Positions 11,485 to 52,364 of a stretch of 64,000 bases of DNA are shown in pieces (within the stretch, counting starts at the first letter, position 1; each line of letters begins with the position of its first letter). The translations under genes were made by a program, and so were the position numbers. This DNA comes from Halocatena salina. Lineage in GTDB: Archaea; Halobacteriota; Halobacteria; Halobacteriales; Haloarculaceae. The DNA is taken from positions 2,108,001-2,172,000 of the forward strand of contig NZ_CP096019.1 in NCBI RefSeq assembly GCF_023115355.1, read 5' to 3'. The notes beneath the pieces are model-generated. The model saw only the letters and a program-made list of their open reading frames with translations, had not been told where the DNA came from and did no database searches.

Positions 11485-11551
11485 TTGTCTGACACACGTC
11501 ATACCGGTGGCGAAAGATAGTTATCCGACGTTGCTGTTATCCAACGCACGT

Positions 11552-12733
11552 ATGGACTCGATCATCGAGGACGCGATCAACGAGGCCGAGGGTGAGCCGG
11601 AGGCCGGAGGGAACAACTCCCAGCAGGAGAACGGGTCCGAGGTTGATGGAACTGCAACCGAGGCCACCACTGCCGCCACGTCCGGTACGATGACCGATGA
11701 CGAGCTCGCGGATATTGTTAGCGAATTAGAAACTAATATCGCGGTTTTTGGGTGTGGTGGGGCCGGTGGCAACACCGTCACCCGGATGGCAGAAGAGGGT
11801 ATCCACGGCGCGACCCTCATTGCCACCAACACTGACGCTCAACACCTCTCAGAACAGGTGACTGCGGACTCGAAGATCCTCATTGGTCGCAAGCAAACCG
11901 GCGGTCGTGGTGCTGGTTCCGTTCCTCAGATCGGTGAGCAGGCCGCCCTTGAGAACAAAGACGACATCGATGCCGCCATCGGGAATTCGGATATGGTTTT
12001 CATCACCGCAGGACTCGGCGGTGGAACGGGGACGGGATCGGCACCAGTTGTCGCGGAAGCCGCTCAGGAGGCCGGTGCGCTCACCATCGCGGTCGTTACC
12101 ATTCCCTTTACGGCGGAGGGCAAGCGCCGTCGGTCGAACGCCGACGCCGGGTTGGAACGGCTGCGATCGGTCGCCGATACGGTCATCGTCATTCCGAACG
12201 ACCGTCTGCTCGAATACGCGCCGAACCTACCACTTCAAGACGCGTTCAAGATCTGTGATCGCGTGTTGATGCGCTCGGTGAAAGGGATGACCGAACTCAT
12301 CACCAAACCGGGCCTCGTAAACGTGGATTTTGCCGACGTGAAAGCGATCATGGAAAACGGTGGGGTGGCAATGATCGGACTCGGCGAATCCGAATCGGAG
12401 AACAAGGCGCGCGATTCGATCCGGTCTGCGCTTCGCTCGCCGCTACTCGACGTGGAGTTTTCGAATGCCACCAGCGCACTCATCAACGTCGTTGGCGGTC
12501 CCGGTATGAGCATCGAGGAAGCGGAAGGCGTCGTAGAAGAGATCTACGAGCGCATCGACAACGATGCCCGTATCATCTGGGGTGCATCGGTCGATACCGA
12601 GTTCGAACAGCGAATGGAAACGATGGTCGTCGTGACCGGCGTGGAATCTCCCCAAATTTACGGTCGGAGTGAAGCCGACCGAGAAGCCCGGTCTCGGTCG
12701 TCGACCACTGACTCCATCGACTACATCGAATAG
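11552..12733 (+). CDS. ftsZ2: Cell division protein FtsZ2
   Basis: A 393-residue tubulin-family GTPase. After an acidic, disordered N-terminal 50 residues, the fold starts at [15 protein letters not shown]; the tubulin signature is [12 protein letters not shown], and the T7 loop [10 protein letters not shown] is intact, so GTP hydrolysis should work. The long acidic N-extension and short C-tail match haloarchaeal FtsZ2, which drives ring constriction, whereas FtsZ1 (second copy at 18273) organises the ring. The start at 11552 is supported by [15 protein letters not shown]. The gene precedes secE-nusG, the usual haloarchaeal order. Confidence 0.95.
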
Positions 12734-16935: not shown

Positions 16936-16956
16936 TCCGCTCTCCCCGATTTGAAC
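16936..16956 (-). repeat. Partial copy of tRNA-Tyr 3' end (att-like)
   Basis: Twenty-one bases are identical to 17071-17091, the 3' acceptor and T-arm part of tRNA-Tyr. Duplication of a tRNA 3' end is what integrase-type insertion at a tRNA gene leaves behind. No integrase gene is present in this window. Confidence 0.75.
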
Positions 16957-17070
16957 CGCGTCAGACGGTCACTCCCTCCGTTCGCGCTGCGACTGACTGG
17001 CTCAAATCGGATCGAGACGATTTGACCCCTCATCACGCTCGCTCCGCTCACGGATTCGGAAACAAAGAAA

Positions 17071-17144
17071 TCCGCTCTCCCCGATTTGAACGGGGGACAA
17101 GTCGATCTACAGTCGACTGCTCTGCCAGACTGAGCTAAGAGCGG
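17071..17144 (-). tRNA. tRNA-Tyr (anticodon GUA)
   Basis: On the minus strand a full cloverleaf can be drawn: acceptor CCGCTCT pairs with AGAGCGG followed by discriminator A; D-arm AGCTCAGTCTGGCAGAGC; anticodon stem GTCGA/TCGAC with loop CTGTAGA, giving anticodon GTA; and T-arm CCCCGTTCAAATCGGGG. No intron is seen and CCA is not encoded. Confidence 0.97.
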
Positions 17145-17274
17145 TCACTCTTTCGTATGTGCATTCATCATTTAACGCTTTCTGTTCAGAATGATCTCGT
17201 CCGTATCCCGTGTCCCCGACAGCTGTCTGACGCTGCACGAACGTTGATATGGATCGGCAATCAACTCTTCTCCG

Positions 17275-17826
17275 ATGAGCAAGATCACGTTTCGCGCTGA
17301 CGACGAACTGATCGCGCAGTTGGAGGAGTTCGAAGCCTCCAAAAGCGCGATCATGCGCGAAGCGCTTCGTACCTATCTCAACACGCATATGAGCGACTCC
17401 GAACCGTCGGACCTCCCAGTAGAATTTGAGGACGAACGCTGGGTGGATCACGTGATCCGAGAGCGTGTGGACGAACTCATCAGCGAACGAGAGGATGGGA
17501 CGTTTACACGGTCCGAACCCAAAGATATCAACGTGAACATCTCTGTCGAGGGGGAGCCACAGACAGCTGTCACCGACGAATCCCCTGCGGATTCTGAGCG
17601 GTGTAAGACGCACACCTCAACGTCGACGGATACAGCGACAGAACGAACTCAGTGCTCTCATTGTGGCGAGACACACCCCGAATCACACGTGTACTGTCCG
17701 AATTGCGGAGAAAAATCCACTCAAGACGATGTCTGTGAGTGCGGAGCTGATATTGACACGAAATGGTCGTTTTGCCCCGTTTGCGGCCGTCGTACCCCAT
17801 CTGAGACTGATCTCGAACGATCGTAG
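17275..17826 (+). CDS. cdrL: Ribbon-helix-helix plus double zinc ribbon regulator (CdrL-like)
   Basis: A 183-residue protein. Residues 1-45 (SKITFRADDELIAQLEEFEA, then SKSAIMREALRTYL) form a ribbon-helix-helix DNA-binding domain. An acidic linker follows. The C-terminus carries zinc-ribbon pairs CSHCG, CPNCG, CECG and CPVCG. In haloarchaea a long RHH protein directly upstream of the cdrS-ftsZ1 operon has been named CdrL and regulates that operon; the name here rests on that context. The downstream promoter carries clear inverted repeats that could be its operator, and one half-site GTAAGACG also occurs inside this gene (17603-17610). Confidence 0.85.
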   Translation: MSKITFRADDELIAQLEEFEASKSAIMREALRTYLNTHMSDSEPSDLPVEFEDERWVDHVIRERVDELISEREDGTFTRSEPKDINVNISVEGEPQTAVTDESPADSERCKTHTSTSTDTATERTQCSHCGETHPESHVYCPNCGEKSTQDDVCECGADIDTKWSFCPVCGRRTPSETDLERS

Positions 17827-17934
17827 TTTGTGATGCTCGTTATGAACGCCTGTATACGCTATAAATCCCCGCGACACGCCCCGAAAGGTCCATCTATGAT
17901 ATTGTATCCATTGATGTCATACATGGGGCAAAGA

Positions 17935-17941
17935 TTTATTA
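17935..17941 (+). promoter_or_regulatory. TATA-like element of the cdrS-ftsZ1 operon
   Basis: TTTATTA lies about 26 bp before the first inverted repeat and about 150 bp before the cdrS start. It is the best archaeal TATA candidate in the intergenic region and implies a long 5' leader containing both operator candidates. Confidence 0.5.
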
Positions 17942-17966
17942 CACCGGCGAGTATGAACACACCTGC

Positions 17967-17984
17967 GTAAGACGACCGTCTTAC
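17967..17984. promoter_or_regulatory. Perfect inverted repeat, candidate RHH operator 1
   Basis: GTAAGACG-AC-CGTCTTAC: 8-bp perfect arms with a 2-bp spacer. It lies close to the expected transcription start. The same arm sequence returns at 18034-18041 and 18065-18072, which argues for a specific binding site of CdrL or CdrS. Confidence 0.7.
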
Positions 17985-18033
17985 ACGGCTGCGCATGCGT
18001 GATGATACGGCCGCATTCGGGCGGTTTCGCCGT

Positions 18034-18072
18034 GTAAGACGCAAGGCGGACTATCGCCCATACTCGTCTTAC
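18034..18072. promoter_or_regulatory. Second GTAAGACG inverted repeat, candidate RHH operator 2
   Basis: GTAAGACG (18034-18041) and CGTCTTAC (18065-18072) repeat the arms of the first site in the same arrangement with a 23-bp spacer. The right arm ends 18 bp before the cdrS start codon. Confidence 0.65.
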
Positions 18073-18090: not shown

Positions 18091-18270
18091 ATGGAGCGTG
18101 TGACACTACGGATTCCAAAACAACAGATCGAAGCAGTCGAACAACTGGTCGAGACGGGAGAATTTCCCAATCGGAGCGAGGCGATTCGATCGGCTGTTCG
18201 AGACATGATTAACGAAGAGAACACAGAGCGTCAGCGACGGGAGAGCAAGCGTCAGTGGGCGCGTGTCTGA
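18091..18270 (+). CDS. cdrS: Ribbon-helix-helix cell division regulator CdrS
   Basis: A 59-residue protein. [20 protein letters not shown], then [17 protein letters not shown], is a complete MetJ/Arc/CopG ribbon-helix-helix fold, followed by a basic tail. The start is set by this domain and by the gap of only 2 bp to ftsZ1. In Halobacterium salinarum and Haloferax volcanii the orthologue in this position, CdrS, is co-transcribed with ftsZ1 and controls division genes including ftsZ2. Dimeric binding to the inverted repeats upstream is expected but not proven here. Confidence 0.92.
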
Positions 18271-18272
18271 CG

Positions 18273-19436
18273 ATGCAAGAACTCGTCAACGACGCGCTCG
18301 AACACGCCGAAGACGAACAACGCAAAGCAGCTAACGCGGACAACATCGACGAGTTTGGCGATCCTCGTATTGTGGTCGTCGGTGCTGGCGGTGCTGGCAA
18401 CAACACCGTCAACCGGCTTTACAACATCGGCGTTGACGGCGCTGACACGGTTGCGATCAACACGGACAAACAACATCTCCAGATGATCGAAGCCGACACG
18501 AAAGTACTCGTCGGGAAGACGCTGACCCAAGGTCTCGGTGCTGGCGGTGATCCCTCAATGGGAGAGCGGGCGACCGAGATGGCACGGGGAACGATCAAAG
18601 ACGTGCTTTCGGGTGCCGATCTCGTGTTCGTTACGGCTGGCATGGGCGGCGGAACGGGAACGGGTGCTGCACCCGTCATTTCAAAAATCGCAAAAGAACT
18701 TGGAGCGATCGTCGTCGGCATGGTTTCGACCCCGTTCAACGTCGAGCGGGCGCGAACCGTGAAAGCCGAAGAAGGACTCGAACAACTCCGCAACGAGGCG
18801 GATTCGATCATCGTTTTAGACAACAATCGATTGCTCGATTACGTTCCGAACCTTCCGATCGGCAAGGCATTTTCCGTAATGGATCAGATCATCGCCGAGA
18901 CGGTCAAGGGGATCTCAGAGACGATCACCCAACCGTCGCTCATCAACCTCGATTACGCGGACATGACCGCCATCATGGGACAAGGGGGCGTTGCGGTCAT
19001 GCTCGTTGGAGAAACACAAGACAAGAACAAAACCGAAGAGGTCGTTCGAGACGCGATGAGCCATCCTCTTCTCGATGTCGATTACCGGGGAGCGACGGGA
19101 GGATTGGTCCACATCACTGGCGGTCCCGATCTCACGCTCAAAGAGGCCGAAGGGATTGCCCAACGGATCACCGAGCGACTCGAGGCCGATGCAAACGTCA
19201 TTTGGGGCGCACGAATCCAACAGGAGTACAAGGGCAAAGTTCGCGTAATGGCGATCATGACGGGCGTACAGAGCGCACAAATTCTCGGCCCGACGACTCA
19301 AAAGCAGGCAGACGCTTCTCGCCGTGCAGCACTTGATCGGGTAGACACCGAGTCGGAAGCTAACTACGGTAGTGCCCAGTCCGATGGCGGACAGGATTCT
19401 GTTGAAACTAACAACGGTCTCGACGTTATTAGATAA
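18273..19436 (+). CDS. ftsZ1: Cell division protein FtsZ1
   Basis: A 387-residue tubulin-family GTPase. [18 protein letters not shown] starts the nucleotide-binding domain, [12 protein letters not shown] is the tubulin signature, and [10 protein letters not shown] is the T7 loop. The C-tail is short and ends in a disordered Asp/Ser-rich stretch. It begins 2 bp after cdrS, so they share an mRNA. It is distinct from ftsZ2 at 11552; haloarchaea need both, FtsZ1 as scaffold and FtsZ2 for constriction. Confidence 0.96.
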
Positions 19437-50144: not shown

Positions 50145-52364
50145 TCACTGGAAGCCGATCCGCTCGCCCTGTTGTTCGACCATATCCTGACCGCCCCGGA
50201 ACCGGTCTTCGATCTGTTCGTAATACCCGCGGATGTCGTCGGTGATCGTCGGCCGCACCGACTCCATCGCCTTGCGGAAGTGGCGCATCTCGACGTCTTC
50301 AGTTTCGGGATCGTCCCGAAGCGCTTCGATGGCGGCCTCCCGACAGATGCTCTCGATGTCGCTGCCGACGTACCCGTTCGTGAGTTCCGCGAGCTCTCGG
50401 AGGCTCACGTCGGGGGCAAGCGGCGTGTCGTCGGTATGAATCTGGAAGATTTGCTTTCTGCCTTCGAGTTCTGGCTCGCCGATGTAGACCAGCCGATCGA
50501 ACCGGCCCGAACGGATGAGCGCGGGATCGATCATATCCGGCCGGTTGGTCGCAGCGATGACCATCACTTCTTCCATCTGTTCGAGTCCATCGAGTTCGGT
50601 CAGCAGTTGGTTGACCACGCGCTCGGAAACGTTGGTGCCGACCTCTCCCCCGCGGTTGGGCGCGAGACTGTCGAGTTCGTCGAAGAAGATGACCGTCGGC
50701 GAGACCTGCCGCCCTTTCCGGAACGTTTGGCGGATCGCCTTCTCCGATTCACCGACCCACTTCGAGAGGAGCTGTGGCCCGCGAACGCTGATGAAGTTGG
50801 CGTTCGTCTCGTTTGCCACCGCCTTGGCCATGAGCGTCTTACCGGTACCGGGTGGCCCGTACAGCAACACCCCCGACGGCGGGGAAATACCGAGCCGTTC
50901 GAACCGTTCGGGGCTGTTCATGGGCCATTCGATCGACTCTTGGACCTGACTTTTCGGATCGTTCAGTCCGCCCACGTCGTCCCACGTGATCTTCGGGAGT
51001 TCCACAAGCACCTCCCGCATCGCGCTGGGATCGACCTCGTTGAGCGCGCCTTGGAAATCACCGCGCTTGATGATCATCCGATCGATGAGACTCGGCGGGA
51101 TATCCTCCTCATCGAGATCGATCTCGGGAAGGTACCGCCGGAGCGCCTTCATGGCGGCCTCTTTCGTGAGCGATTCGATATCAGCTCCGACGAATCCGTG
51201 GGTCTCGTCGGCGAGCGTGCTGAGGTTCACGTCGTCCGAAAGCGGCATCCCACGGGTGTGGATCTGTAGGATCTCTTCCCGTCCGGATTCGTCGGGCACC
51301 CCGATCTCGATCTCCCGATCGAACCGACCGGGGCGGCGAAGCGCCGGATCGACGCTGTCGACGCGGTTGGTCGCGCCGATGACGATGACCTGCCCGCGCG
51401 ATTCCAACCCATCCATCATCGTCAACAGCTGGGCGACGACCCTGCGCTCGACCTCGCCGGTGACGTCCTCCCGTTTGGGAGCGATCGAGTCGAGCTCATC
51501 GATGAAGATGATGGCCGGAGACTCCTCGCTCGCGTCCTCGAAGATCTCCCGAAGTTGCTGTTCGGACTCGCCGTAGTATTTCGAGATGATTTCCGGACCG
51601 GCGATGGAGAAGAAACTCGCGGAGGTCTCGTTCGCAACGGCTTTTGCAAGCAGCGTTTTCCCCGTTCCGGGAGGCCCGTGGAGGAGTACTCCCTGTGGCG
51701 GCTCAATGCCGAGCTTTTTGAAGATCTGTGGGTGCTTCATCGGAAGCTCGACCATCTCTCGGACCCGCTGGATTTCGTTTCGGAGTCCGCCGATGTCCTC
51801 GTAGGTGATTCCAGCACCGCGGCTTTCGAACCCCGAGATCGGCTCTTCACGGAGTTCGACGTCCGTATCCTCGGTGATGAGCACCACGCCCTCGGGCTCG
51901 GTTTCGACGGCGATCAAGGGTATGGCCTGACCCGGCGAGCGCATAAACGGATGGTTCGTACTCGACATCACGGGCACGATGTCTCGCTGGGCGACCGGTC
52001 GCTTCATGATCTGGCGTTTTACCATCCCGGCCGCATCGCTGCCGAACTGCACGCTCGCTTCCTCCGGCGGCGCGAGGACCAACTGCTCGGCCTTGTTCGC
52101 TTCTGCTTTCCGGATCTTTACCCGCTCACCGATCCCAACATCGGCGTTCTGTCGAGTGAATCCGTCGATACGAACCGTATCGGTGTTCCAGTCTTGCCGG
52201 TCTGCCCGCCACACCTTTGCGGCGGTCGTATCGCTGCCCTCTATTTCGATGATGTCGCCCGGACTCAGCTTCAAATGAAGCAGTGTGTCCGGGTCGAGAC
52301 GAGCGATCCCACGTCCCGAATCATTCGGGTACGCCTTTGCCACCTCCAGTTGGACTTCATTCAT
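50145..52364 (-). CDS. cdcH: AAA ATPase Cdc48/VCP (CdcH)
   Basis: A 739-residue protein. The N-domain ([20 protein letters not shown]) is followed by D1 ([32 protein letters not shown]) and D2 ([32 protein letters not shown]) AAA modules, each with Walker A and B and an arginine finger near [17 protein letters not shown] or [17 protein letters not shown]. It unfolds substrates for the proteasome. The C-terminus is short and lacks the eukaryotic tail. Highly conserved and complete. Confidence 0.97.

Follow-up and report, generated by a model that had tools for sequence, protein, structure and literature searches.

Array and genes at the cdrS promoter

The window analysed here, a stretch of 64,000 nucleotides from Halocatena salina (contig NZ_CP096019.1, positions 2,108,001 to 2,172,000), contains cdrL, cdrS, and ftsZ2 in this order (Table 1). 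The match of CdrL to the family RHH_1 scored 19.9 bits, slightly below the cut-off of 20.5, and AlphaFold modelled the protein with low confidence (pTM 0.19). By cdrS sequence, Halocatena pleomorpha was the closest of the named relatives. In Haloferacaceae archaeon XH8 (CP132292.1; L062, L074), cdrS was observed near both ends of the chromosome record, which could be a leftover assembly overlap or a duplication. The original prediction, made from the letters of this DNA, had called the operon cdrS-ftsZ1; by synteny and the naming used in the literature, the gene 3′ of cdrS is ftsZ2, and the ftsZ1-type paralog lies elsewhere in the window.

Table 1. Coordinates of genes and sequence elements in the window.
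Feature	Position	Strand	Remarks
CdrS-type site GTCTGACACACGTCATAC before ftsZ1-type gene	11487..11504	+	G000:C1:2119487-2119504; place conserved in other genomes
Second FtsZ paralog, ftsZ1-type	11711..12724	+	G000:C1:2119711-2120724; 44% identical over the aligned part
cdrL (183 aa, RHH and double zinc ribbon)	17275..17826	+	Pfam CdrL_M, DZR, and Zn_Ribbon above cut-off
Half-site C (codons tGT AAG ACG)	17603..17610	+	inside cdrL coding sequence
Half-site U (GTCATAC)	17916..17922	-	5′ of BRE/TATA
TATA box (TTTATTA)	17935..17941	+	same offset across genomes, strongly conserved
Arm 1 of IR1	17967..17974	+	conserved across genomes
Arm 2 of IR1	17977..17984	-	N4 spacer between 7-mers in 105/122 promoters
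P2, 5′ side (ACGGC)	17985..17989	+	covariation
P2, 3′ side (GCCGT)	18029..18033	+	covariation
Arm 3	18034..18041	+	
Arm 4	18065..18072	-	directly 5′ of GGGGAA and cdrS start
cdrS (59 aa, RHH protein)	18091..18270	+	NCBIfam NF058555 CdrS equivalog, 114.4 bits (cut-off 100)
ftsZ2	18273..19436	+	TIGR00065, 405.7 bits; synteny with cdrS as in PMC7439475

Two pairs of 8-bp arms are placed between the TATA box and cdrS: the palindrome IR1 (GTAAGACG-AC-CGTCTTAC; 17967-17984), with a spacer of 2 bp, and arms 3 and 4 (18034-18041 and 18065-18072), with a spacer of 23 bp. The original prediction had located these four arms exactly and had given both spacers correctly, together with the TATA-like box upstream and the lone half-site in cdrL; what it had missed was half-site U, the fact that the half-site in cdrL is under selection, and an RNA stem. 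The strongest inverted repeat is neither of the pairs named before; it joins arms 2 and 3 over a perfect 13 bp (CGTCTTACACGGC...GCCGTGTAAGACG; 17977-17989 and 18029-18041). In the window, the order of elements is C (inside cdrL, 364 bp 5′ of arm 1), U, IR1, arm 3, and arm 4, and their half-site consensus is GTAWGAC. Given the usual archaeal spacing between TATA box and start, transcription of cdrS is predicted to begin at ∼17964-17966, and IR1 would then cover ∼+3 to +20 of the transcript.

The 8-bp arm occurred six times in the window, with 2.2 copies expected (2 of 100 shuffles reached six), and four of the six copies were clustered within 106 bp. IR1 was unique in the 4.0-Mb genome, with one exact match and none with one or two mismatches; matches with three mismatches were not above the control (55 vs 80). 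The sixth GTAAGACG of the window (50835-50842) lies inside a gene for a Cdc48-type ATPase (ORF 50145-52364, minus strand). Among the CdrS targets of Hfx. volcanii is a Cdc48d gene, but the copy in the window is within coding sequence and looks like chance.

Conservation of the half-sites in Halobacteria

The palindrome GTAAGAC-N1-6-GTCTTAC was detected in 286 of 292 Halobacteria genomes, vs 4 of 292 for the control pattern, nearly always as a single copy; a search before cdrS in other genomes was a check that the original prediction had proposed. When genomes were sampled across the phylum, the pattern was present in 51 of 53 from the class; outside the class, it was found in three of ∼240 genomes of the same phylum, which is fewer than for the control pattern. 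In all fetched cdrS promoters with IR1, the palindrome stood directly before cdrS and at a fixed offset from the TATA box, its half-sites being 11 bp apart, centre to centre, in 105 of 122 promoters and 9-13 bp in the rest. The spacing of arms 3 and 4 varied from 26 to 41 bp, so that this pair lacks a constant helical phasing. Five of the six genomes without exact IR1 had changes in one arm with the remainder recognisable, among them Hbt. salinarum (GTGAGAC-GGTC-GTCTTAC); in the sixth, G249, cdrS was not found. A second palindrome of the form GTAAGAC-N1-6-GTCTTAC was observed in four genomes (G153, G181, G259, and G271, the last with the sequence GTAAGACCGTCTTAC).

Judged by this conservation, IR1 is a real and deeply conserved site of a regulatory array, present throughout the class about once per genome, where the principal cell-division operon of these salt-loving archaea begins. 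That the repeats reflect chance or a coincidence of codons has a negligible probability: nothing in favour of it emerged from the comparative search, and the shuffles, the genome counts relative to the control pattern, and the uniqueness of IR1 in the genome rule out a chance origin.

A further half-site lay upstream of the promoter. In 111 of 122 promoters (0.8 expected), GTCWTAC or its complement was present between -75 and -45 relative to arm 1, and 94 of these U-type half-sites were positioned at -53 to -51, within one base of -52.

Half-site C is part of a protein-coding sequence. GTAAGAC occurred at its position in 74 of 92 distinct cdrL genes, when synonymous shuffling gave a mean of 11.5 and a maximum of 19. 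It was always in the same reading frame and in the same region of the gene, mostly encoding Arg-Lys-Thr, typically ∼320 bp 5′ of IR1, and it was the sole fully conserved stretch (2.0 bits per base) in the otherwise hypervariable linker of cdrL. The arginine codon at C was CGT in 73 of 74 Arg-Lys-Thr sites, compared with ∼20% CGT among all arginine codons; in some cdrL genes, cysteine or serine replaces the arginine before Lys-Thr, the DNA still reading GTAAGAC. In a subset with dissimilar linkers, C was present in 52 of 68, but other 7-mers were also common in cdrL linkers; the case for C is therefore made by codon bias and synonymous shuffle and not by the count alone. A codon coincidence is ruled out by the shuffle, and C, to judge from these comparisons, is under selection at the nucleotide level. 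The helical phasing between C and IR1 (relatedness ignored) was weak.

The leader RNA of cdrS

While ∼70% of haloarchaeal transcripts are leaderless (PMC8303175), the cdrS leader comprises ∼120 nt. The leaders folded better than their shuffles (mean z of -3.5; -1.7 between arms 2 and 3; control, -0.2), the z-score of the window's own leader being only -1.5; its fold joins arms 1 and 4 as well as arms 2 and 3. Stem P2 consists of five base pairs directly next to arms 2 and 3, and each pair shows changes in both of its positions. Its covariation score, calculated from 56 sequences thinned by similarity with phylogeny ignored, was 0.441, vs 0.184 ± 0.026 for shuffled and at most 0.191 for slid alignments. 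Because this stem abutting arms 2 and 3 covaries, the leader is probably a folded RNA. A search of Rfam yielded no match to the leader at E values up to 5, only the neighbouring tRNA.

The arms could, on this basis, act mainly in RNA, with a folded leader (arm 1 with 2 or 4, arm 2 with 3) controlling translation or stability of the cdrS-ftsZ2 mRNA. P2 is continuous with arms 2 and 3, the leaders fold better than shuffles, and RNA-seq and Ribo-seq in Hbt. salinarum, where cdrS-ftsZ2 mRNA rises without matching ribosome occupancy, point to post-transcriptional control of this operon (PMC8303175). However, the arms themselves are fixed in sequence, without paired compensating changes in the promoter comparison, and the z-score of the window's leader is modest. 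Furthermore, the cdrS leader RNA cannot account for U, located 5′ of the TATA box, or for C, located within cdrL, and a protein-DNA site has been published for the region upstream of cdrS. A role of the arms solely in RNA was rejected because their variation is uncompensated and U and C are outside the leader; a predominantly RNA-based function is rather improbable.

Candidate proteins reading the array

CdrL-FLAG ChIP-seq in Hbt. salinarum had the region upstream of cdrS-ftsZ2 as its sole reproducible site (PMC7439475); in the text searched, the peak is not narrowed to a motif, and no motif, palindrome, or accessory site is mentioned. In the genome recognised as Hbt. salinarum by 100% bacteriorhodopsin identity (G051), the cdrS region contains GTAAGAC-ATCT-GTTTAC, GTGAGAC-GGTC-GTCTTAC, GTAAGAC, and GTCTTAC, which places the array in the only region occupied by CdrL in vivo. 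The published occupancy and the window thus agree in locus, in one site per genome, and in the presence of the array; the sequence elements are what the present analysis supplies. The class restriction of IR1 also matches that reported for CdrL.

In operators of the Arc/CopG/MetJ type, RHH dimers occupy half-sites approximately one helical turn apart. The inverted half-sites of IR1 follow this arrangement, with mostly fixed spacing; unlike such operators, the array also has isolated distant half-sites, one of them inside the regulator's own gene. The E. coli NikR operator (GTATGA-N16-TCATAC; PMC7055735) is likewise read by an RHH protein, and GTATGA is contained in GTAWGAC, but its half-sites are 16 bp apart and bound by a tetramer that depends on nickel; neither CdrS nor CdrL gave a match to a nickel-binding domain.

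In contrast to the expectation that the same repeat would precede other division genes, the ftsZ1-type gene carries GTCAGAC-N4-GTCTGAC instead. Upstream of ftsZ1 in 14 genomes, mostly this motif or a near variant was present, 5′ of BRE/TATA; the Halocatena site includes GTCATAC. Haloferax denitrificans has two exact copies of the motif, one before ftsZ1 and the other next to a hisB-like gene, and the Hfx. volcanii counterparts of both are published CdrS targets (PMC8406309). The motif is thus a deduced one for CdrS, which most likely reads this sister site at ftsZ1, where each half-site departs from that of IR1 by a single base. With up to one mismatch, it was also observed at several further places in ten genomes (L222-L232), above the control pattern; these are candidate CdrS targets. 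The CdrS sites of Hfx. volcanii resemble the array in having an RHH regulator, a symmetric motif, cell-division targets, and, for the deduced motif, a 7+4+7 architecture. They differ from IR1 in their deduced half-site, GTCAGAC against GTAAGAC, in a position 5′ of the promoter and not over the start of the transcript, and in number, CdrS having many targets and IR1 being one (PMC8406309). The CdrS ChIP-seq sites in Hfx. volcanii, 18 in total, do not include the cdrS promoter (PMC8406309). Since the cdrS promoter is missing from the published targets and the half-site that CdrS seems to recognise differs by one base, CdrL is favoured over CdrS, the other candidate originally named, and IR1 as a CdrS site was rejected.

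IR1 is, despite this, not restricted to genomes with cdrL. Profile searches yielded no cdrL in at least 10 near-complete genomes keeping IR1; in genomes without cdrL at the locus, only weak zinc-ribbon and unrelated RHH matches were obtained, when two control genomes gave 1e-70 or better, which rejects relocation of the gene. IR1 was kept in 143 of 150 promoters with cdrL vs 11 of 12 without, and arm 4 in 141 of 150 vs 12 of 12. U, in contrast, was kept in 139 of 150 vs 5 of 12, and arm 3 in 111 of 150 vs 2 of 12; U was retained where the loss looks recent. This association ignores phylogeny, the losses clustering in perhaps eight lineages, but it is suggestive of U and arm 3 behaving as CdrL-linked and of IR1 and arm 4 having another user or a second role. 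As IR1 is intact in 11 of 12 promoters without cdrL, CdrL is not its only user, and an operator model with CdrL alone is incomplete. In several genomes without cdrL, many tRNA 3′-end-like copies were visible at its place as repeated ALPDLN/IRPPRFE reading frames, and the window itself (16939-17145) has two such copies (CTCTCCCCGATTTGAAC) near the tRNA gene beside cdrL. These tRNA-adjacent repeats may represent an integration hotspot behind the repeated loss of cdrL.

CdrS might instead be the main reader of IR1, by autorepression, with CdrL acting in addition at U, C, and arm 3 and both proteins sharing a loose half-site family, GT[AC][AT]GAC. IR1 and arm 4 persist without cdrL in genomes where cdrS is present, CdrS has a NikR-like strand (by its matches to NikR, whose E. 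coli half-site is GTATGA; PMC7055735), and the Halocatena ftsZ1-type site contains GTCATAC. The absence of its own promoter from the ChIP sites reported for CdrS and the fact that IR1 stays GTAAGAC, distinct from the deduced CdrS motif, even after cdrL loss make this unlikely. Another protein found throughout Halobacteria, such as an uncharacterised SKVNFRIP-type RHH protein, would also account for IR1 being kept without cdrL, and such proteins occur in three of these genomes; no link of this type to the locus was found, however, and the published ChIP fits CdrL, so that this is very improbable.

The fixed place, the mostly fixed 11-bp spacing, the class-wide conservation, the one site per genome, and the published CdrL ChIP-seq (PMC7439475) together make the array a well-supported candidate operator for RHH proteins, in agreement with the original proposal. 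We assign a probability of roughly 60% to the array being such an operator with CdrL as the principal reader; most likely, CdrL reads it and shares IR1 with CdrS or with a function in RNA. CdrL would presumably contact GTAWGAC directly: a pair of dimers on IR1, one helical turn apart, would block initiation or promoter escape at cdrS-ftsZ2, and further CdrL bound at U, C, and arm 3 would raise the affinity through bridges or loops. The array DNA would be transcribed into the ∼120-nt leader, folding around P2 in continuity with arms 2 and 3, which would provide a second, post-transcriptional layer. Repression as the sign of regulation, looping, and a function of the leader are what we infer from this arrangement. 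Tentatively, the locus could be a dual DNA/RNA switch in which CdrL and CdrS split a one-base half-site code (cdrS-ftsZ2 vs ftsZ1), CdrL loops the C site in cdrL to the promoter, and the transcribed arms with P2 tune translation of the division operon.

Neither the array sequence nor the accessory sites were found in the available text of the CdrS and CdrL papers (PMC8406309, PMC7439475), and a search of the open-access literature for GTAAGAC with archaea gave nothing relevant. How archaea with an FtsZ ring dose their division proteins is poorly understood. Half-site C is evidence of an operator half-site maintained within a protein-coding gene across the class, the hypothesis of one-base specificity separates the two RHH proteins CdrL and CdrS, and the array shows precisely which bases to change in the two genetic models, Haloferax and Halobacterium.
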